Shown here: positions 55,920-64,000 of the stretch, piece after piece
Layout of the letters: the number at the start of each line of letters is the position of its first letter
Position numbering within the stretch: the first letter of the stretch is position 1
DNA from: Polaribacter haliotis
GTDB lineage: Bacteria > Bacteroidota > Bacteroidia > Flavobacteriales > Flavobacteriaceae
Length of the DNA stretch: 64,000 bases
Assembly: GCF_014784055.1 (NCBI RefSeq)
Contig: NZ_CP061813.1
Coordinates: forward strand, 1,870,001 to 1,934,000
Reading direction: 5' to 3'
Program-made: the position numbers and the translations under genes
The notes under the pieces: model-generated
What the model saw: only the letters and a program-made list of their open reading frames with translations
Databases searched by the model: none
What the model was told of the DNA's origin: nothing

Positions 55920-56783
55920 ATGAGACAACTTAAAATTACCAAGCAGGTTACCAATAGAGAAACTGCATCGTTAGACAAATATTTACAGGAAATTGGAAAA
56001 GTAGATTTAATTACTGCAGATGAAGAAGTTGAATTAGCACAGCGAATTAAAGCTGGCGATCAAAGAGCATTAGAGAAATTAACAAAAGCAAATTTACGTT
56101 TTGTAGTTTCTGTAGCAAAACAATATCAAAACCAAGGATTAACATTACCAGATTTAATTAATGAAGGTAATTTAGGTTTAATTAAAGCCGCAAAACGTTT
56201 CGATGAAACTAGAGGTTTTAAATTTATATCATACGCAGTTTGGTGGATTCGTCAATCGATCTTACAAGCATTGGCAGAACAATCTAGAATTGTACGTTTA
56301 CCGTTAAATAAAATTGGTTCTATCAATAAAATTAACAAAATGTACGCCTTCTTAGAGCAAGAAAACGAGCGCCCACCAAGTGCCGAAGAAATTGCGAAGA
56401 AATTAGACATGACTGTGAATGACGTAAAAGAATCTATGAAAAATTCTGGACGTCACGTATCTATGGATGCACCTTTAATTGAAGGTGAAGATTCTAATTT
56501 ATACGATGTTTTAAACTCTGGAGAATCTCCAAATCCTGATCGTAAATTATTACACGAATCTTTAAGAATCGAGATTAACAGAGCGTTAGAAACATTAACA
56601 CCTCGTGAAGCAGATGTTGTAAAATTATATTTTGGTTTAGGAGAACACCAACCAATGACTTTAGAAGAAATTGGAGAAACTTTCGATTTAACAAGAGAAA
56701 GAGTTCGTCAAATTAAAGAAAAAGCAATTCGTAGATTAAAACATACGTCTAGAAGTAAAATTTTAATGACATACTTAGGCTAG
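55920..56783 (+). CDS. rpoD: Primary sigma factor RpoD (short Bacteroidota form)
   Basis: A 287-residue housekeeping sigma factor lacking the long N-terminal regions of E. coli sigma-70, as usual in Bacteroidota. Region 1.2 ([20 protein letters not shown]), region 2 ([38 protein letters not shown]), region 3 and region 4 ([35 protein letters not shown]) are all intact. It recognises TTG/TAnnTTTG promoters like those noted here. The cassette array begins some 240 bp downstream. Confidence 0.97.
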
Positions 56784-56864: not shown

Positions 56865-57019
56865 AGTGAAAAATATCTAAAAATTAAACAAAGCTTTTAA
56901 AATTAAATAACTTTTAAATCTGTTTAAATAATTTATCTTTACAGGATAACAGTAACATAAGAGATATGATATCCAGATTTATTTACGGGATATCGTTAAT
57001 AAAAGTTATTATATAACGA
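56865..57019. other. Left boundary of the cassette array (possible attI-like end)
   Basis: No gene. It holds an inverted repeat GATATCC (56968-56974) and GGATATC (56988-56994) with a 13-nt spacer, and a small GTTAT/ATAAC repeat (57005-57017) touching the first cassette. The first cassette starts at 57020 with GTTGCCACCA, but no upstream inner-stem arm like those of the later sites is seen. If the array is integron-like, an attI-type primary site would lie here, yet no integrase gene is next to it. Confidence 0.4.
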
Positions 57020-57053
57020 GTTGCCACCAATACGAAAAAAACCAATCTGACGA

Positions 57054-57563
57054 ATGAAAAAAATTCTGATTTTATTAATAATGTTGAATTTTATATCGTG
57101 TAGTAAAATCACACCTTCAGGATTTTGGCTGAATTACGAAACCGACTTTATTACAGAAAAACAAAATGACCAAGGACCTTTTGGAGGAACATTGCTTATA
57201 AATTGGATTGCGGATAACGATTATGAATTTGATATTAAAAAAATAACTGAACTTGCCGATAAAAACGATTGGAAACTGATTGACAGTATGAATTATAAAA
57301 AAGCGGATTTGAGAAATATGACGGATTTTGGAAAACCGACAATCAATCTTCCTCTCAAAAATTTTACGCCTGAATCAAAAAAAGCGGATTTGAAATCGGA
57401 ACCTTTTCCTCGCTGGATTGAAACGAATTTTAAGCTTTACCGATTTAAAACTGGTTGGTTGATTTTTGAACCTGGAACTAATGACTCGACTAATGAAAAT
57501 GGATTTTTATTAATAAGTTCTGACAATAAACAAATGACTGTTTATCATTTATGGGGCGAATAA
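57054..57563 (+). CDS. Cassette 1: lipoprotein, unknown function
   Basis: 169 residues with a lipoprotein signal (ILLIMLNFISC, Cys at 16). Middle part is rich in aromatic and acidic residues (GFWLNYETDF, FRWIETN-like PFPRWIETNFKLYRF) and ends MTVYHLWGE. No domain recognised. It starts 34 bp inside the cassette and ends 13 bp before the left 10-mer of its site. CTG, GCG and CGG-type codons look more common than in the chromosomal genes to the left, suggesting a foreign origin. Confidence 0.8.
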   Translation: MKKILILLIMLNFISCSKITPSGFWLNYETDFITEKQNDQGPFGGTLLINWIADNDYEFDIKKITELADKNDWKLIDSMNYKKADLRNMTDFGKPTINLPLKNFTPESKKADLKSEPFPRWIETNFKLYRFKTGWLIFEPGTNDSTNENGFLLISSDNKQMTVYHLWGE

Positions 57564-57576
57564 ATAGAAAAAGTAC

Positions 57577-57715
57577 TGGTGGCAACACCGTATATAATTT
57601 ATTGCTAGTTCTAGCCTACTTACGAAAATCCTCGCGGATTTTCTTGGTCGGTTTTTATTTACTAACTTTAGTGCTTGAAACACGCAACAAATCATATACA
57701 ACAACGTTGTAAGTA
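57577..57715 (+). repeat. Cassette site 1 (between cassettes 1 and 2)
   Basis: Left 10-mer TGGTGGCAAC (57577-57586, pairs with 57020-57029), spacer ACC, inner arm GTATATAATTTATTGC (57590-57605), central hairpin GAAAATCC-TCGC-GGATTTTC (57624-57643), inner arm GCAACAAATCATATAC (57684-57699), spacer AACAAC, then the next cassette's GTTGTAAGTA (57706-57715). Inner-arm mismatches are A-C at positions 7 and 12. Confidence 0.88.
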
Positions 57716-57733
57716 ATTTGCCAAAAACCGAAA

Positions 57734-58303
57734 ATGAAGTATCTGATTTTAATTTTAGTCTGTTTATTTATACAATCTTGTTCTGATTGCACAAATGTAT
57801 ATTTTACGGAAAACGACAAAACTTGGTTTACTAATTATAATGTTGGAGATAAAATAATATTCAAATCTCAACTAAATGATTATGACACAATTTTTATTAC
57901 AAATAAAGTTGTCAAAGAACCAAAAGGTGAATGCAATCCATTTGTGTCTGAATTTGACAAAGATTTTGTTAGAGTAGATTACGAAATTAAAAAAGATACT
58001 TTCAAATTAGTAAACGATTACTTTGTACAAATTGGAGCGAATGAAAATCTGAAAGACGCAAGTCCTGTCATTCGTTTACTAAATATGGAATATAGTAATT
58101 CTAGAAATAATTTACCTACACCAAAAGTATCTGAATTGAATGCTGACTGGAAAAATGTTTATACTTTCGACAAAAATAATTGTCCATATTCAAATTTGAA
58201 TGGAAAATTTGGTTTAACTGAATTTCAATGGGATAAAACTTATGGACTTGTCTCGTATAAAAACGAAAGCGGAGAAAAATGGATTTTATTAAAGAAAGAA
58301 TAA
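57734..58303 (+). CDS. Cassette 2: lipoprotein, unknown function
   Basis: 189 residues with lipobox LFIQSC (Cys at 16), followed by SDCTNVYFTENDKTWFTNYNVGD. Beta-rich, with a C-terminal WKNVYTFDKNNCPYSNLNGKFGLTEFQWDKTYGLVSYKN that has two of its four mature-chain cysteines pairing possibilities. No known family. The stop comes 4 bp before the cassette's terminal 10-mer. Confidence 0.8.
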   Translation: MKYLILILVCLFIQSCSDCTNVYFTENDKTWFTNYNVGDKIIFKSQLNDYDTIFITNKVVKEPKGECNPFVSEFDKDFVRVDYEIKKDTFKLVNDYFVQIGANENLKDASPVIRLLNMEYSNSRNNLPTPKVSELNADWKNVYTFDKNNCPYSNLNGKFGLTEFQWDKTYGLVSYKNESGEKWILLKKE

Positions 58304-58307
58304 AAAC

Positions 58308-58443
58308 TACTTACAACAACGTATATAATTTATTGCTAGTTCTAGCCTACTTACGAAAATCCTCGCGGATTTTCTATTCGGTTTTTATTTGCTAAATTAG
58401 GTGTTTAACCACGCAACAAACCATATACAAACCGTTCTACGCA
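58308..58443 (+). repeat. Cassette site 2 (between cassettes 2 and 3)
   Basis: Left 10-mer TACTTACAAC (58308-58317, pairs with GTTGTAAGTA at 57706), spacer AAC, inner arm 58321-58336, hairpin 58355-58374, inner arm GCAACAAACCATATAC (58413-58428), spacer AAACC (5 nt), next GTTCTACGCA (58434-58443). A-C mismatches at inner positions 7, 8 and 12. Confidence 0.88.
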
Positions 58444-58467
58444 ATTTACCAAAAATACCGCTGAAAA

Positions 58468-58983
58468 ATGAAAACCGAAAAAATAATTTATGAAACTAAA
58501 CCGAAAATAATTAGTCTTTATGGAGTTCTTTTTTTGTTTTTAATTGGAACATATTTCGTTTATACTTCTGAATCATTGACAATCAAAATTTTTATGGGTG
58601 GAATTTTTTTATTCGCACTAATTTTTGGAATGATTAGAAATTATCTTGCAAACGGAATTATAATTACTGAAAATAGAATAGAATTACTGAAAACGAATAT
58701 GACTGGAAAAACTGAATCTGAATTTATTAATTTTTCTGAAATTAAAAGCGTAAAATATAATCAAGGTCAATATCGACAAGACAGCGCAATTTATTTAAGG
58801 AGAAAACTGAAATCGGAACTGAAGGTTCTTATTCCAATTAATTCATTTGAATTTGGTCACGTTTTAAAGTTTTTAAACGGAAAAGGAATTGAAATTAATT
58901 TAGTTCATTCTGACCAGGAATTACGAATGTTTATAGACGGAAAAATAACTGAATTTCCAATGACGAATGAAAAAACTGCGTAG
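58468..58983 (+). CDS. Cassette 3: two-helix membrane protein with PH-like domain
   Basis: 171 residues. Two membrane helices (about 13-31 and 38-55) are followed by a soluble part, NGIIITENRIELLKTNMTGKTESEFINFSEIKSVKYNQG..., whose pattern resembles bacterial PH-like membrane proteins. No closer assignment. The TAG stop lies inside the terminal 10-mer TGCGTAGAAC, so the gene uses the cassette end itself. Confidence 0.75.
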   Translation: MKTEKIIYETKPKIISLYGVLFLFLIGTYFVYTSESLTIKIFMGGIFLFALIFGMIRNYLANGIIITENRIELLKTNMTGKTESEFINFSEIKSVKYNQGQYRQDSAIYLRRKLKSELKVLIPINSFEFGHVLKFLNGKGIEINLVHSDQELRMFIDGKITEFPMTNEKTA

Positions 58984-59116
58984 AACACCGTATATAATTT
59001 ATTGCTGGCTTCTTGCCTACTTGCGAAAGTCCTCGCGGACTTTCTTGGTCGGTAATTATTTATTAAATTAGTTGCTTGAAACACGCAACAAACCATATAC
59101 AACAACGTTGTACACA
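58977..59116 (+). repeat. Cassette site 3 (between cassettes 3 and 4)
   Basis: Left 10-mer TGCGTAGAAC (58977-58986, pairs with GTTCTACGCA at 58434), spacer ACC, inner arm 58990-59005, hairpin GAAAGTCC-TCGC-GGACTTTC (59025-59044; one compensated pair versus site 1), inner arm 59085-59100, spacer AACAAC, next GTTGTACACA (59107-59116). Confidence 0.88.
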
Positions 59117-59132
59117 ATATGAGAAAAACCCT

Positions 59133-59762
59133 ATGAATACTGAAAAAATAGACATTCAGATTTTATCCAAAACGGATAATTTGAGGCTTTACATAATTGA
59201 ACATACTTTACATATTGAAACACTAATCTCTGAAGCAATAGGTAGTCTACTAAATATTGATTACGAAACTTCAAAATCATTTGGATTTCGTTCAAGTTCT
59301 CTTTCTTTCAGCCAAAAAACATATATAATTCAAGATATTAAAGGGCTTGAATCAGAAATGGCGAAAAAACTAAATGCTTTAATGAATATTAGGAATAAAT
59401 TCGCTCACGTTCAAGTAATTGATTCTTTTGAGAAATTCTTTGAAATTGCAAGTAATGGAGAACAAATAAAAAATAGCCTTGAAAAATGGTATAGTGTTGA
59501 AAATAAAAAAGAAGAAGACAATAAATACAAATTTTTATTTTTTTTACTATCAGAAGAAATAACTAAAATGCTTTGGGATTTAAGAGTAAAAGATAGGTTA
59601 GAAAAAAGTGTGCTTCAAGCTGAAAAGGTTTTCCAAAAAGGTCAATTGGAATCTTTTAAAGAAATAATGAATGAATCTGAAAATCCAGAGGAAATAAACG
59701 CAGAAGTTTTAAAAAGAACAATTAAAAAAGTTCCACAACTTCGAGTTGAAAGTAAAAAATAA
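59133..59762 (+). CDS. Cassette 4a: HEPN-motif helical protein
   Basis: 209 residues from the ATG at 59133; a TTG start at 59076 would read through the recombination site and is rejected. All-helical, with IRNKFAH (R87 to H92), an R-x4-H pattern like that of HEPN ribonucleases and also seen in MltR-like proteins. The C-terminal half is charged and coiled-coil-like. It is paired in one cassette with a GIY-YIG-type gene 15 bp downstream; a toxin, repressor or defence role is possible but not shown. Confidence 0.75.
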   Translation: MNTEKIDIQILSKTDNLRLYIIEHTLHIETLISEAIGSLLNIDYETSKSFGFRSSSLSFSQKTYIIQDIKGLESEMAKKLNALMNIRNKFAHVQVIDSFEKFFEIASNGEQIKNSLEKWYSVENKKEEDNKYKFLFFLLSEEITKMLWDLRVKDRLEKSVLQAEKVFQKGQLESFKEIMNESENPEEINAEVLKRTIKKVPQLRVESKK

Positions 59763-59777
59763 AGTTCTGTACAAAAG

Positions 59778-60674
59778 ATGAAAAAAACTACAGATAAAAC
59801 TCATAAATGGGAATTTGGTATGTATCCAATCTCAAAAGAAATGTCTGATAGATATGAAAAATCTATTTTTCGCATTATAAAATTTCTCAATGATTTTATT
59901 ATTTATAATAAGGTTCTTGATGATTTTTCCGAATTAAAAGGAATGTTAAATAGAACAGTTAAAAAAAATCAATTAGATTGGTTTACAGTTTATGAAAAGT
60001 TACATTATCCTAATGAACGTGAATTAGTTGGAGTAATATTTTTAATCACTGAATTAAGAAACCTACTAAAAAACAACAACTCATTAGAAGAGTTCAAACA
60101 AAATGAAAAAATATTCTTGTGCTATTTAAAGAAACTAATTGAAAATTATAATTCAAAAATAAATGCACCAGAAGAATATCTTTATATTTTATCGTTAAAA
60201 AATGAGCCTGATATTCTCAAAATTGGAATGACAACTGGAAAAGTTTCAAAAAGAGTTAATCAAATTAATTCAAGCACAGGAGTTTTGAATCCATATGGTG
60301 TTAGAAAAGTCTTTAAAGTTAAAAACTGTAAAGTTGCAGAGCGAGAAAGTCATTTAATATTAAGTGATTATAGAATTAGAAAAGACCGAGAGTTTTTTAA
60401 AATCCCTTTTGCTCAAGCATTAGATTTAATTGAGAAAAGTTTTACTCAAAATGGTCTTAAAATTCGGAATATTGGAAAAATCATTTATTTTAATCCTGCA
60501 AGTAAAATAGGAAAAATCAAATATTGTGGCATTGAAAACATTGAGTTTTCTAAAGAAGATTTAGTTTTTGAGAACGAAACTTTTGAAATTGGAAATTTAG
60601 TTGAATATGATATTAATATCGTTAAGAAAAAACTAAAAAAGATAGTGAAAAATACTGTGTACAACACCGTATAA
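59778..60674 (+). CDS. Cassette 4b: GIY-YIG (T5orf172/MUG113-like) protein with cold-shock-like C-terminus
   Basis: 298 residues. Residues 134-214 fit the GIY-YIG superfamily in its T5orf172/MUG113 form: YLYILSL (134-140), KIGMT (148-152), R159 in KVSKRVNQIN, AERESH (187-192), then REFFKIP. Residues about 232-280 (GKIIYFNPASKIGKIKYC ... NLVEYDI) look like a cold-shock/OB domain. The N-terminal 130 residues are helical. The frame runs into the site and stops at TAA (60672-60674) inside the inner stem. Likely acts on nucleic acid; a defence function is inference. Confidence 0.75.
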   Translation: MKKTTDKTHKWEFGMYPISKEMSDRYEKSIFRIIKFLNDFIIYNKVLDDFSELKGMLNRTVKKNQLDWFTVYEKLHYPNERELVGVIFLITELRNLLKNNNSLEEFKQNEKIFLCYLKKLIENYNSKINAPEEYLYILSLKNEPDILKIGMTTGKVSKRVNQINSSTGVLNPYGVRKVFKVKNCKVAERESHLILSDYRIRKDREFFKIPFAQALDLIEKSFTQNGLKIRNIGKIIYFNPASKIGKIKYCGIENIEFSKEDLVFENETFEIGNLVEYDINIVKKKLKKIVKNTVYNTV

Positions 60675-60796
60675 ACTTTATTGCTGGCTTCTCGCCTATT
60701 TGCGAAAGTCCTCGCGGACTTTCTTGGTTTGTGTTTTATTTACTAAATTAGTTCCTTAAAACACGCAACAAAGCTTATACAACAACGTTACCACAC
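60656..60796 (+). repeat. Cassette site 4 (between cassettes 4 and 5)
   Basis: Left 10-mer TGTGTACAAC (60656-60665, pairs with 59107-59116), spacer ACC, inner arm GTATAAACTTTATTGC (60669-60684), hairpin GAAAGTCC/GGACTTTC (60704-60723), inner arm GCAACAAAGCTTATAC (60765-60780), spacer AACAAC, next GTTACCACAC (60787-60796). Inner positions 6 and 8 differ from site 1 on both arms with pairing kept. Confidence 0.88.
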
Positions 60797-60798
60797 AT

Positions 60799-61500
60799 TT
60801 GAGAAAAACGCTTTTCATATCGACAATTTTAGTTTTGAATTCATTCTTTTCGTTTGCCCAAAACAGAATTGAATTAGTTGCGAATGATTGTAGTCAAGAA
60901 AATGGATTTACAATGTTTTTATTGGATAGAGCTAAACCGAAAATTCTAACTGAACAAAAATTTGAACAAGAAGAAAAATATTGGAATAATCAAAAGAAGA
61001 TTTTACTCAATAATTCGGACATTATAAAAATAGAATACACGAATATTTTTGGACAGATAATCGACACAACTTTCACAAACGCAAAGGAACTGAATGAAAT
61101 AAAAATCTGTGTAAATAAATTCAAAGATTACGAAAAGAAATCTCTAATAAAAGAATCAATCCAAAACGACCAAAGCTGGGTTTTAAACTCAACTTGGGGA
61201 CATCAAACTTTTGAATCTGATGAACTGACTTTAAAACCTAAAAACGGATTTTTAAAATATAAATATTACAAAAACGGAAAAAGAATAAAGCGTGGAAAAA
61301 TAAAAATAACGGAATCCGTTATGGACAGAATAGCTTTATTTGAGCGTAAACTGAATTTAATGCAAAATGCTGACAATTCTTGTAATTTCGGAATTAGTTA
61401 TAATCTTGACAATGGAATTGAAAAAATTAATTTTCAAGACGACAGTTGTTCTGGATTTTCGAATGAACAATTACTGACTGAATTAAAAATAGTGAAATAA
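60799..61500 (+). CDS. Cassette 5: secreted protein, unknown function
   Basis: 233 residues, starting at TTG (60799) only 2 bp after the initial 10-mer; no ATG fits. Signal peptide with cleavage near SFAQ. Two cysteines early (NDCSQ, and ICVN) and two late (NSCNF, DDSCSG) may form disulfides. No domain recognised. The region before the stop (YNLDNGIEKINFQDDSCSGFSNEQ) is beta-like. Confidence 0.75.
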   Translation: MRKTLFISTILVLNSFFSFAQNRIELVANDCSQENGFTMFLLDRAKPKILTEQKFEQEEKYWNNQKKILLNNSDIIKIEYTNIFGQIIDTTFTNAKELNEIKICVNKFKDYEKKSLIKESIQNDQSWVLNSTWGHQTFESDELTLKPKNGFLKYKYYKNGKRIKRGKIKITESVMDRIALFERKLNLMQNADNSCNFGISYNLDNGIEKINFQDDSCSGFSNEQLLTELKIVK

Positions 61501-61505
61501 AAAAC

Positions 61506-61642
61506 GTGTGGTAACACCGTATATAATTTATTGCTAGTTCTAGCCTACTTACGAAAATCCTCGCGGATTTTCTATTCGGTTTTTATTTGCTAAATTACGT
61601 GCTAAACCACGCAACAAACCATATACAAACACGTTGTAAGCA
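61506..61642 (+). repeat. Cassette site 5 (between cassettes 5 and 6)
   Basis: Left 10-mer GTGTGGTAAC (61506-61515, pairs with GTTACCACAC at 60787), spacer ACC, inner arm 61519-61534, hairpin 61553-61572, inner arm 61611-61626, spacer AAACAC, next GTTGTAAGCA (61633-61642). A-C mismatches at inner positions 7, 8 and 12. Confidence 0.88.
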
Positions 61643-61652
61643 ATTTGAGAAA

Positions 61653-62348
61653 ATGGCGAAATATTTAACAGACATAAGTATTGAAAGTGAATTTTCGCAG
61701 GAATTTTCAAATGGATTTACGAAATTAGACTTTAACAAAACTACCAAAGTTGTTCAAGACATATTTTGGTATCTAATTCCAAATAAATTCGAATTTGATG
61801 GAATTGGAAAATTAAATATTAGAATCACTTCTGCAATTCCAGATAATAAATACAAGGAAACAGCTGTTGGATTTGCACAATATACATACGGACAATTTGA
61901 ATTTTCTAAATATTTTAAATTACATCAAACCGAACAGAATAAGGTTATATTAAAAATATTACAGAAAGCTATATCTGATATCCTAAAGCACAATCAAGAA
62001 AAAGCTAATACTTTAATTGAAATTACGAATAGAATAAGTGACATCGGATTTGAATACGAGACAGAGGACAAAAAACTATCTAAGTGGAATAGAAAACGTA
62101 ATTATAGAGGTTTAGTCATTTACAAAATTGACAAAAACGGACAAAATGCATACGTTACGTTAACTGATAAAAATGGAGTTGTATTTTTTAGAGAACACCT
62201 TTTAAAGAATAGGGTTTACGACTTCTTTAATAGTTTATATAAAACGAAATGGATTGGAGAAAAATTTCAGATTATTAATAGAGATGGAAATTTATTTAAA
62301 GAATTTGATGCGGAAAAAACTGCTTACAACAATGTATATAAAAAATAG
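61653..62348 (+). CDS. Cassette 6: soluble protein, unknown function
   Basis: 231 residues from the ATG at 61653; an upstream in-frame start at 61587 would encode site sequence and is rejected. No signal or membrane segment. Mixed alpha/beta with a basic middle (KKLSKWNRKRNYRGLVIYKI) and a repeat-like end (NRDGNLFKEFDAEKTAYNNVYKK). The last codons and TAG stop lie inside the left arm of the following site. Possibly an immunity or regulatory protein; no family recognised. Confidence 0.7.
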   Translation: MAKYLTDISIESEFSQEFSNGFTKLDFNKTTKVVQDIFWYLIPNKFEFDGIGKLNIRITSAIPDNKYKETAVGFAQYTYGQFEFSKYFKLHQTEQNKVILKILQKAISDILKHNQEKANTLIEITNRISDIGFEYETEDKKLSKWNRKRNYRGLVIYKIDKNGQNAYVTLTDKNGVVFFREHLLKNRVYDFFNSLYKTKWIGEKFQIINRDGNLFKEFDAEKTAYNNVYKK

Positions 62349-62525
62349 CGCAAGTCGTTGCTAACACTAAGTCTTGGGCATTTTTCGGAAGTCGCCAAAT
62401 TTTTAAATTTGACGATTTCCCAAAAATAAAATAAATAGTAAAATTTAAAAATTCGGCTTGTGTTTATCCGAAAAGTAACAGCTTATTTTCAGCACTACTT
62501 TTCATATACGGAGCCGTTGGGTTTA
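62321..62525 (+). repeat. Cassette site 6, divergent in sequence but same geometry
   Basis: Left 10-mer TGCTTACAAC (62321-62330, pairs with 61633-61642), spacer AAT, inner arm GTATATAAAAAATAGCGC (62334-62351), central hairpin GGAAGTCGCCAAATTT...AAATTTGACGATTTCC (62387-62420), inner arm GCACTACTTTTCATATAC (62492-62509), spacer GGAGCC, next GTTGGGTTTA (62516-62525). A-C mismatches again fall at inner positions 7 and 12, although the sequence is unlike the other sites. Confidence 0.8.
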
Positions 62526-62531
62526 ATACGA

Positions 62532-63230
62532 ATGAAACATATAAACTACATTTTAATATTTCTATTTTTAGTTGGTTGCTCATCAACAAAAAAACTGACT
62601 AAAAACAGTTCCAAACCGACAAAGTTTGTTTTTAAGAAATCTATGGTTTCTTCCCAAAATGGAATCTCGAATTTAAAATCAAAGCAGGATTCTTTAATTG
62701 ATGCAACTTACAAGCCGAATGGAAAAGATTCTTTGATGAATAAAAAACTTAAGGAAATGCAGATGACTGATTTTCTAACTCAAACACCAGAAACGGAAAT
62801 TTATGTAGAAATTCAAAATGACTCTATTTGGCGTTATACCAAACAAAAAGGTAAAATGATTGGCGATTATTTTATGATTCAAAAAAATAGCGGAATTTTA
62901 AACTATTACGACAAATCCAAATCTGTCAATTATAGAAAGTATGACCTGTTTGCTAAAAATCACGAATACGAAATAGTTGAAAATCGAAAAGACAGAAAGG
63001 AAATAAAGGGTTTTGATTGTTACAAATTGACTTTAATAAAAAAAGACACAGAAAGCGACTTAGGAAATACGATTTACGAGATGTATGTGACTGACCAAAT
63101 TGAATTACCAATACATTCCGTTATTAATTTAACTAAACTTATTCCGAATAACTTTCCAATGGAAATTAAAGTCTGGGAAGAAAAACTTTCTGGAATGGCT
63201 GAATTATATGAATTAATCGGTATTGAATAA
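62532..63230 (+). CDS. Cassette 7: lipoprotein, unknown function
   Basis: 232 residues from the ATG at 62532, 6 bp after the 10-mer; an open frame from 62460 reads through the preceding site. Lipobox LFLVGC (Cys at 16). The second half, KEIKGFDCYKLTLIKKDTES...IYEMYVTDQIELPIHSVI, resembles DUF4412/GLPGLI-type secreted proteins in pattern. Function unknown. Confidence 0.75.
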   Translation: MKHINYILIFLFLVGCSSTKKLTKNSSKPTKFVFKKSMVSSQNGISNLKSKQDSLIDATYKPNGKDSLMNKKLKEMQMTDFLTQTPETEIYVEIQNDSIWRYTKQKGKMIGDYFMIQKNSGILNYYDKSKSVNYRKYDLFAKNHEYEIVENRKDRKEIKGFDCYKLTLIKKDTESDLGNTIYEMYVTDQIELPIHSVINLTKLIPNNFPMEIKVWEEKLSGMAELYELIGIE

Positions 63231-63235
63231 AGTAC

Positions 63236-63372
63236 TAAACCCAACAACGTATATAATTTATTGCTAGTTCTTGCCTACTTATGAAAATCCTCGCGGATTT
63301 TCTATTCGGTTTTTATTTGCTAAATTACGTGCTAAACCACGCAACAAACCATATACAAACACGTTGTGTTTA
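63236..63372 (+). repeat. Cassette site 7 (between cassettes 7 and 8)
   Basis: Left 10-mer TAAACCCAAC (63236-63245, pairs with GTTGGGTTTA at 62516), spacer AAC, inner arm 63249-63264, hairpin 63283-63302, inner arm 63341-63356, spacer AAACAC, next GTTGTGTTTA (63363-63372). Confidence 0.88.
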
Positions 63373-63390
63373 ATTTGAAAAAGAAAATTA

Positions 63391-63804
63391 ATGAAACAAA
63401 GTAAGATTTCTAAAACTTGGAATTATTACAAAAAAAATAGTTGGAAATTAGGAGTCTTAATTTTATCAATAGTTCTTTTTTACTTTGTTATTCAGAAAAT
63501 TGAATTGAAACAAAATTCCGTTGAAACTTATGGTAAAATATATGAAAAAAAACGAATTGTAAGTGGAATCAGAGTTGGACCTCTATTTAAGTACAAGTTT
63601 TGGTTTATGTATAATGGGAAAAAACATTTTGGAGAAACAACAAAAACTCTTGAAGGAGAAAATAATATTGGAAAAGTATTTAAAGTGAGAGTTTTAATGA
63701 ATAAACCTGAGAACTATGAAATTCTTTTTGACCAAGAATATGTTGAAAAATATATTATTGACAAAAACGGAATTAAAAAAACTCTATATTTTGAAAAAAA
63801 CTAA
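63391..63804 (+). CDS. Cassette 8: single-helix membrane protein
   Basis: 137 residues: a basic N-terminus, one membrane helix (about 20-38) and a beta-rich outer part (GKIYEKKRIVSGIRVGPLFKYKFWFMYNGKKHFGETTKTL) somewhat like DUF3592-type domains. The TAA stop forms the first three bases of the terminal 10-mer TAAACACAAC. Function unknown. Confidence 0.75.
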   Translation: MKQSKISKTWNYYKKNSWKLGVLILSIVLFYFVIQKIELKQNSVETYGKIYEKKRIVSGIRVGPLFKYKFWFMYNGKKHFGETTKTLEGENNIGKVFKVRVLMNKPENYEILFDQEYVEKYIIDKNGIKKTLYFEKN

Positions 63805-63938
63805 ACACAACAACGTGTATAATTAATGGCTAGTTCTCGCCTACTTACGAAAATCCTCGCGGATTTTCTATTCGGTTTTTATTTGCTAAATTAGTTGCTT
63901 AAACACGCCACAAATCATACACAAAACCGTTGCCAGTA
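63802..63938 (+). repeat. Cassette site 8 (between cassettes 8 and 9)
   Basis: Left 10-mer TAAACACAAC (63802-63811, pairs with 63363-63372), spacer AAC, inner arm GTGTATAATTAATGGC (63815-63830), hairpin 63849-63868, inner arm GCCACAAATCATACAC (63907-63922), spacer AAAACC, next GTTGCCAGTA (63929-63938). Inner positions 3 and 14 are changed on both arms with pairing kept. Confidence 0.87.
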
Positions 63939-63969
63939 ATACAAAACCAAACTAACTAAAAATCGAAGT

Positions 63970-64000
63970 ATGTTTAAAAAAGCAATAATAGAAGCCTTTC
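63970..64000 (+). CDS. Cassette 9: start of a gene, cut by the window edge
   Basis: An ATG at 63970 opens a frame MFKKAIIEAF that runs off the edge, 31 bp after the cassette's initial 10-mer. Nothing further can be said. Confidence 0.5.
   Translation, partial: MFKKAIIEAF

Follow-up and report, generated by a model that had tools for sequence, protein, structure and literature searches.

What are the one-directional genes and folded repeats that lie directly behind rpoD in Polaribacter haliotis, and which enzyme would move them? We analysed a 64,000-nucleotide stretch of contig NZ_CP061813.1 (positions 1,870,001 to 1,934,000; hereafter the window), in a genome that consists of one contig of 3,800,626 bases. 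The array adjoins the 3' side of rpoD and, within the window, comprises eight cassettes in full and 72 bp at the start of a ninth, with all genes on the plus strand and eight related sites between them (Table 1). Beyond the window it reaches a total of 12 cassettes, the last with a half site, and is followed by rpe. The boundaries that a first-pass annotation of the window had drawn, for eight full cassettes and part of a ninth running in one direction after rpoD with one or two genes each, were recovered. We consider it highly probable that the array belongs to an integron-like gene-capture system of Bacteroidota that is run by its own tyrosine recombinase instead of by the integron integrase IntI. 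This reading is carried by the anatomy of the cassettes, the covariation of their sites, the exact duplication of whole cassettes and the linkage of integrase, attI-like site and array in several genera.

Each cassette carries the two halves of its own outer helix. The first 10 nt of a cassette, GTT followed by seven variable positions, are the reverse complement of the 10 nt that precede the body of its own site. Across 21 cassettes of this genome (12 in the window array and nine in a second array), 140 of the 147 variable positions pair within the same cassette, and none of 100,000 permutations reached this number, the maximum being 94. Agreement with the next cassette was 0 to 6 of 7 positions in 19 comparisons. 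The outer ends match at 8 or 9 of 10 positions in 5 of the 21 cassettes. In the site body, 13 base pairs spread over about 16 nt form a bulged stem that includes conserved unpaired bases. Covariation in this stem was measured in an alignment of 75 sites (A3), in which 16 sites from this genome were combined with 59 of 138 foreign sites, taken from 24 other loci; only foreign sites of 119-128 nt were used, and near-copies and locus L087 were dropped. All 13 inner-stem pairs change on both sides. Paired cells amount to 92.6%, versus 72.6% after shuffling, a level that 0 of 500 shuffles reached, and 156 cells are changed on two sides versus 4 on one side. Among this genome's own sites alone (n = 17), 7 of the 13 pairs change on both sides. 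The near absence of one-sided (G-T) changes suggests that selection acts on the pairing of the DNA. A search of Rfam gave no attC-type match and a single chance microRNA match far under its cut-off. Both the end agreement and the stem covariation support the eight related folded sites that had been described between the cassettes.

Cassettes recur as whole units in the comparisons made. A set of 232 cassettes was compiled by running a script on 32 arrays or loci, not all of which need have contributed. A single mismatch was tolerated where a chain included two or more exact cassettes, and cassettes longer than 3500 bp were dropped; a few ends (e.g. those giving sites of 44-86 nt) are probably wrong. 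Since chance alone produces chains of two cassettes when one mismatch is allowed (five 100-kb Markov sequences gave 37 chains of two and one of three), foreign arrays were mostly restricted to exact ends, and ends made up wholly of A/T were discarded. The cassette finder also picks up arrays in mirror image on the opposite strand, and the strand was set by gene direction together with the site model. The longest frame runs forward in 203 of the 232 cassettes and in reverse in 7, with 12 having none of at least 60 codons and 10 undecided. One 587-bp cassette, by our own reading a putative GNAT-like gene with its site, is present in both arrays of the genome with 0 mismatches, and the identity extends only 1 nt further to the left and 3 nt to the right. 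The full set contains 11 full-length duplicate pairs; in 10 of them both copies lie in the same genome, and the remaining pair links G113 with Algibacter onchidii L169 at 93.6%. At Polaribacter locus L166 an identical 794-bp cassette occupies both the attI position and a place about 6 kb further in, with nothing shared leftward.

The candidate enzyme is encoded at the second array, which lies directly behind a gene for a 389-aa tyrosine recombinase (L014:1811-2980) that itself follows pnp. This gene is ~77 kb from the window array and is the sole member of its family in the genome at E ≤ 1e-60. A 55-bp leader before the first cassette of the second array recurs before the window array, with its last 36 bp identical, and the leader of a third array matches at 35 of 36 positions. 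A first site model, R1, located at least 40 sites at E ≤ 0.001 in this genome, in four arrays and some lone places (150 of 4905 candidates were scored). The bases just before the window leader read NNLSLQDNSNIRDMIS and resemble the C-terminal end of a member of this integrase family (P0019 ends NKLSLQDNSNIKGMISD). Because the leader keeps the last codons of an integrase gene, the window array is probably the remnant of a complete element that once carried its own integrase; as it stands, it is of the integrase-less kind, termed a cluster of attC sites lacking integron-integrases (CALIN) in integron nomenclature. The rpoD locus was also compared among relatives, as the first-pass annotation had advised (from 55 genomes with a match, 30 loci were taken, one of them that of the window itself). 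In 28 of the 29 same-genus loci there is no array and rpe follows rpoD within 96-781 bp, and the 29th lacks an rpe over 1.5 kb; the array at this place thus looks like a gain of this lineage. In genome G168 the order is pnp, integrase, leader, an insertion sequence (IS) element, other genes, cassettes, rpoD and rpe. An IS3-like element, identified by our own reading of its open reading frames (ORFs), has nearly the same flanks here (L014:11330-12600) and in G168 (L076:1818-3100), and in both genomes it sits in the array just behind a cassette start.

Linkage of this kind was then evaluated in 249 genomes of the family Flavobacteriaceae. Using a second site model, R2, with at most 14 or 11 scored candidates per genome, sites were found at E ≤ 1e-6 in 218 genomes, and relatives of the integrase (E ≤ 1e-60) were found in 101. 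Sites occur in 99 of the 101 genomes with the integrase versus 119 of the 148 without it (Fisher p 1e-5). Of the first 20 integrase loci fetched, 10 have chains of at least two exact cassettes, and five, shorter than 3.5 kb, have none. In 49 of 76 loci a candidate attI motif, [GAT]TATAA[AC]nnGTT, stands around or behind the integrase stop codon, usually at a distance of 15-34 bp, and it occurs in 23 of 1520 control windows. Upstream of it the sequence TAnnTTTG, which we take to be the Bacteroidota -7 promoter box, is present at 18 of 51 loci (among L104-L183), mostly about 14 nt away, versus 42 of 2040 controls; a cassette promoter may lie there. Among 80 named integrase loci, 51 have an end of the available sequence at most 4 kb behind the gene and 7 have one at most 4 kb in front of it, a clustering such as repeats would cause.

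In the search of Bacteroidota with a site model, likewise advised at the outset, 77 of the 296 phylum genomes scanned also had R2 sites. Nine of 14 site-bearing phylum genomes match the integrase profile at E ≤ 1e-60. In G348, G340, G471 and G355 the integrase adjoins the array and points away from it, with the sites on the other strand before its 5' end, which is the arrangement of most known integrons. The profile match in these four starts at position 45-96, and at L246-L250, from other classes, the integrase seems to lack the N-terminal domain. In G410, which belongs to the same class as Polaribacter, the sites lie behind the 3' end of the integrase, as in Flavobacteriaceae. The linked integrase, attI-like site and arrays, together with the exact GTT-bounded duplications, uphold the original suggestion of a Bacteroidota cassette system related to, or convergent with, integrons.

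Plasmids and phages also carry parts of the system. A plasmid of Chryseobacterium sp. SNU WT5 (NZ_CP041688.1, L228) encodes an integrase of 36% identity and also has a leader resembling attI and four R2 sites (E < 1e-4); on a C. oryzae plasmid (L229) the cassette finder gave no chain. Acinetobacter accounts for 24 of the 29 plasmid records with an integrase match at E ≤ 1e-50. On one of these, from Acinetobacter baylyi (NZ_CP104735.1, L227:2967-4988), a partial recombinase related to the present integrase (44% over residues 137-370) precedes tet(X3), which occupies the place of a first cassette; R2 found no site there. The xerD-tet(X3) unit is described without the word integron in the consulted part of PMC7494873. 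In the lytic Polaribacter phage P12002L (L214), R2 detected seven sites at E < 1e-5, some of which lie around genes for DNA methyltransferases, and the cassette finder gave no exact chain.

The feature that sets the system apart from the classical integrons measured is its integrase. The alignment shows invariant R, K, H, R, H and Y, which we take to be the tyrosine-recombinase residues. The best NCBIfam score is to NF040815, the XerA/XerC/XerD model (219.4 bits, cut-off 220), and the integron-integrase model TIGR02249 gives 196.5 bits in two pieces, under its cut-off of 265. The spacing between the motifs KGxKDR and HxLRH could be read in 104 of 120 family members (the pattern missed the other 16) and is 58 residues in all of these; among relatives from other families or classes it is 58 in 8 of 9 and 59 in one. 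The same spacing in IntI is 101 residues in 117 of 120 matches (one has 102 and two escaped) and 100 in 11 of 11 IntI of the phylum, and an alignment with the IntI structure 2A3V gives 13 versus 58 residues at the insert. On these spacings the IntI-specific insert is absent from this integrase family, and the enzyme must therefore hold folded sites in another way.

The explanation that survives best besides our own is that the integrase is nonetheless a true, very divergent IntI, either a sister clade or a descendant that lost the insert, which would make the system a divergent classical integron. A tree constrained to make the family and IntI sisters was compatible with the data (approximately unbiased test, p 0.73) and scored even better, 2A3V is among the nearest solved structures, and the anatomy is otherwise integron-like. 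IntI and the present family nevertheless form separate clades, with supports of 100 and 99, XerA-type chains are the best solved structures and outscore IntI by both sequence and fold, and the spacing in XerA is similar (60 and 62). Members from Flavobacteriaceae moreover have an extra N-terminal stretch of about 95 residues. The AlphaFold model of the integrase is middling (pLDDT 73.9, pTM 0.46). We regard a divergent IntI as a serious possibility, though a doubtful one. Xer-type recombinases act at a single dif site, whereas the present integrase, closest to XerA/XerC/XerD by score, lies at cassette arrays and has the additional N-terminal stretch.

A less tenable alternative is that a classical IntI moves the repeats as ordinary attC sites, the neighbouring integrase being a bystander. 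An attC cluster has been described in phage P12002L, and IntI1 was active on one of the two sites tested (PMC9892861, in the part consulted). The phage holds sites of the present family, of which the tested site may be one. Genuine IntI over the cut-off occurs in 84 of the 296 phylum genomes. Of these 84, however, 83 share only the phylum with P. haliotis and one shares its class, and none was found in its own family. Four IntI loci (L252-L255, one of only 4.3 kb) contained no R2 match at E ≤ 0.001, though the cassette finder located 14 exact classical sites in two of them; the other six loci of this comparison gave 33 R2 matches (overlapping G348 loci counted twice). In G340 and G355, which hold both enzymes, the R2 sites adjoin the present integrase, and two cassette systems seem to coexist in each of these genomes. 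Taken with these observations, movement by a classical IntI is very improbable.

Two features that the first-pass annotation had used to set these sites apart were dropped as evidence, as two IntI arrays of the phylum behave alike. Its statement that most core sites do not fit GTTRRRY holds (3 of 21 own starts and 16 of 232 cassettes overall fit), but the misfit does not discriminate: two genuine IntI arrays (G355 and G329) have GTTRRRY in 1 of 14 sites, and 6 of 85 present-type sites fit. Its 10-bp outer helix is not longer than the classical one, since the same measurement gave 10-13 bp in 14 of 14 sites of these two arrays. The inner helix, put at 16-18 bp, does span about 16 nt, of which only 13 positions are paired, with unpaired bases among them. 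In 83 of 85 foreign sites the present-type outer helix ends after exactly 10 bp (the finder requires at least 10), a difference that together with the R2 result marks a site family distinct from that of classical integrons.

That the repeats are static intergenic elements (terminators, or elements resembling repetitive extragenic palindromes or miniature inverted-repeat transposable elements (MITEs)) between vertically inherited genes is extremely unlikely, for although the sites are alike and hairpin-capable and some stand alone in the genome, their outermost 10 nt vary from one site to another and are complementary to the start of their own cassette rather than to a neighbour, whole gene-plus-site units are duplicated where a MITE would duplicate without its gene, and the array is missing from nearly all same-genus loci.

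Several observations weigh against a capture system run by this integrase. As given above, sites are nonetheless present in 119 of the 148 family genomes in which no integrase reached E ≤ 1e-60. Fifteen of the integrase loci fetched first were long enough to judge, and five of these, of 20 kb, lack any run of two or more exact cassettes; one of the five, G168, has cassettes by eye. Site-bearing genomes G390, G411, G448, G458 and G459 match the integrase profile only at 1e-32 to 1e-43, which is the level of the second matches, probably Xer-type, in the other genomes. In site-bearing genomes without the integrase, remoter or other enzymes may act, or the sites may be relics. The duplicated cassette, sought in the 249 family genomes, was found only here, apart from an 82-83% relative of its GNAT gene in G031 that has no detected cassette site. 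Finally, the IntI-specific insert, here absent, has been reported as essential for integron function (PMC8138268, in the section consulted).

We propose that the system works as follows. The recombinase would cut at the GTT that begins each cassette, and the cassette would be excised as a circle, whose two ends could pair, on a folded single strand, into the 10-bp outer helix around the conserved bulged stem. Circles would then be inserted at the attI-like site ATATAACnnGTT or at the sites of other cassettes, so that cassettes of one or two genes would accumulate head to tail in one direction. The circles, the single-strand folding, the strand that would be cut and this integrase as the actor are all inferred. 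Features shared with classical integrons are the mostly one-gene, unidirectional cassettes with a folded site at the 3' end, the outer pairs formed from the two ends of one cassette, an attI-like entry site next to the gene of a tyrosine recombinase, exact duplicates bounded at GTT and integrase-less clusters. Unlike classical integrons, the attI-like site lies behind the 3' end of the integrase gene in Flavobacteriaceae. The system thus appears to work like an integron, while its integrase falls outside the IntI class by clade, by the absence of the insert, by its TIGR02249 score and, in Flavobacteriaceae, by its extra N-terminal stretch.

The cassettes of the window carry mostly unassigned genes. 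Eight of the 10 cassette proteins scanned matched no Pfam family, and one more matched weakly. In cassette 4 the first gene is HEPN-like (PADLOC Cas13b model, 1e-6) and the second is of the T5orf172 type (PADLOC PDC-S57, 1.6e-21); the two are probably a phage-defence pair.

Table 1. Features of the rpoD-adjacent cassette array, in window coordinates
Feature	Position	Strand	Remarks
rpoD, sigma-factor gene to the left of the array	55920..56783	+	same protein in relatives
Fragment of integrase-gene 3' end	56927..56974	+	reads NNLSLQDNSNIRDMIS, compare NKLSLQDNSNIKGMIS ending P0019; by eye against the integrase alignment
attI-like leader	56968..57022	+	last 36 bp identical to leader behind integrase at L014; 55 bp nearly identical
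Cassette 1	57020..57705	+	ORF 57054-57563, 169 aa, no family; folded site 57577-57705
Cassette 2	57706..58433	+	ORF 57734-58303, 189 aa, no family; site 58308-58433
Cassette 3	58434..59106	+	ORF 58468-58983, 171 aa, weak bPH_3 match below its cut-off; site 58977-59106
Cassette 4, two genes	59107..60786	+	ORFs 59139-59762 and 59778-60674; site 60656-60786
Cassette 5	60787..61632	+	ORF to 61500, 228-233 aa, no family; site 61506-61632
Cassette 6	61633..62515	+	ORF 61653-62348, 231 aa, no family; long-variant site 62321-62515
Cassette 7	62516..63362	+	ORF 62532-63230, 232 aa, no family; site 63236-63362
Cassette 8	63363..63928	+	ORF 63391-63804, 137 aa, no family; site 63802-63928
Cassette 9 (start in window)	63929..64000	+	extends to window-equivalent 65247
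Cassettes 10-12	to about window-equivalent 68370, then rpe		genes beyond the window

Reports of integrons in Bacteroidetes are rare. Reviews list Bacteroidetes among the phyla with integrons (PMC8618304, as excerpted), and the IntegronFinder 2.0 survey, in its consulted part, gives Salinibacter ruber as the one complete Bacteroidetes integron, besides integrase-only ones reported earlier (PMC9024848). In PMC2426708, as far as its consulted text goes, sequences were chosen by the additional domain of IntI, so that a system lacking the insert would have been left out there. The P12002L cluster, a CALIN whose sites include those of the present family, some of them beside methyltransferase genes, was treated as consisting of attC sites of ordinary integrons, and the integrase of the host was not considered in the consulted part of that work (PMC9892861). 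In the open-licence papers searched we found no account of such a cassette system with its own integrase.

A wider interpretation, to which we give somewhat less than even weight, is that this is a second kind of integron, in which a Xer-like recombinase without the IntI insert came separately to capture folded cassettes, with sites in most of the Flavobacteriaceae genomes sampled, an extension to phages and plasmids, and a possible part in the spread of genes such as tet(X). A capture system with its own recombinase would give an abundant bacterial group an unnoticed means of acquiring genes. It would suggest that recombination at folded sites is possible without the IntI insert, and would open a test of whether integrons arose twice.

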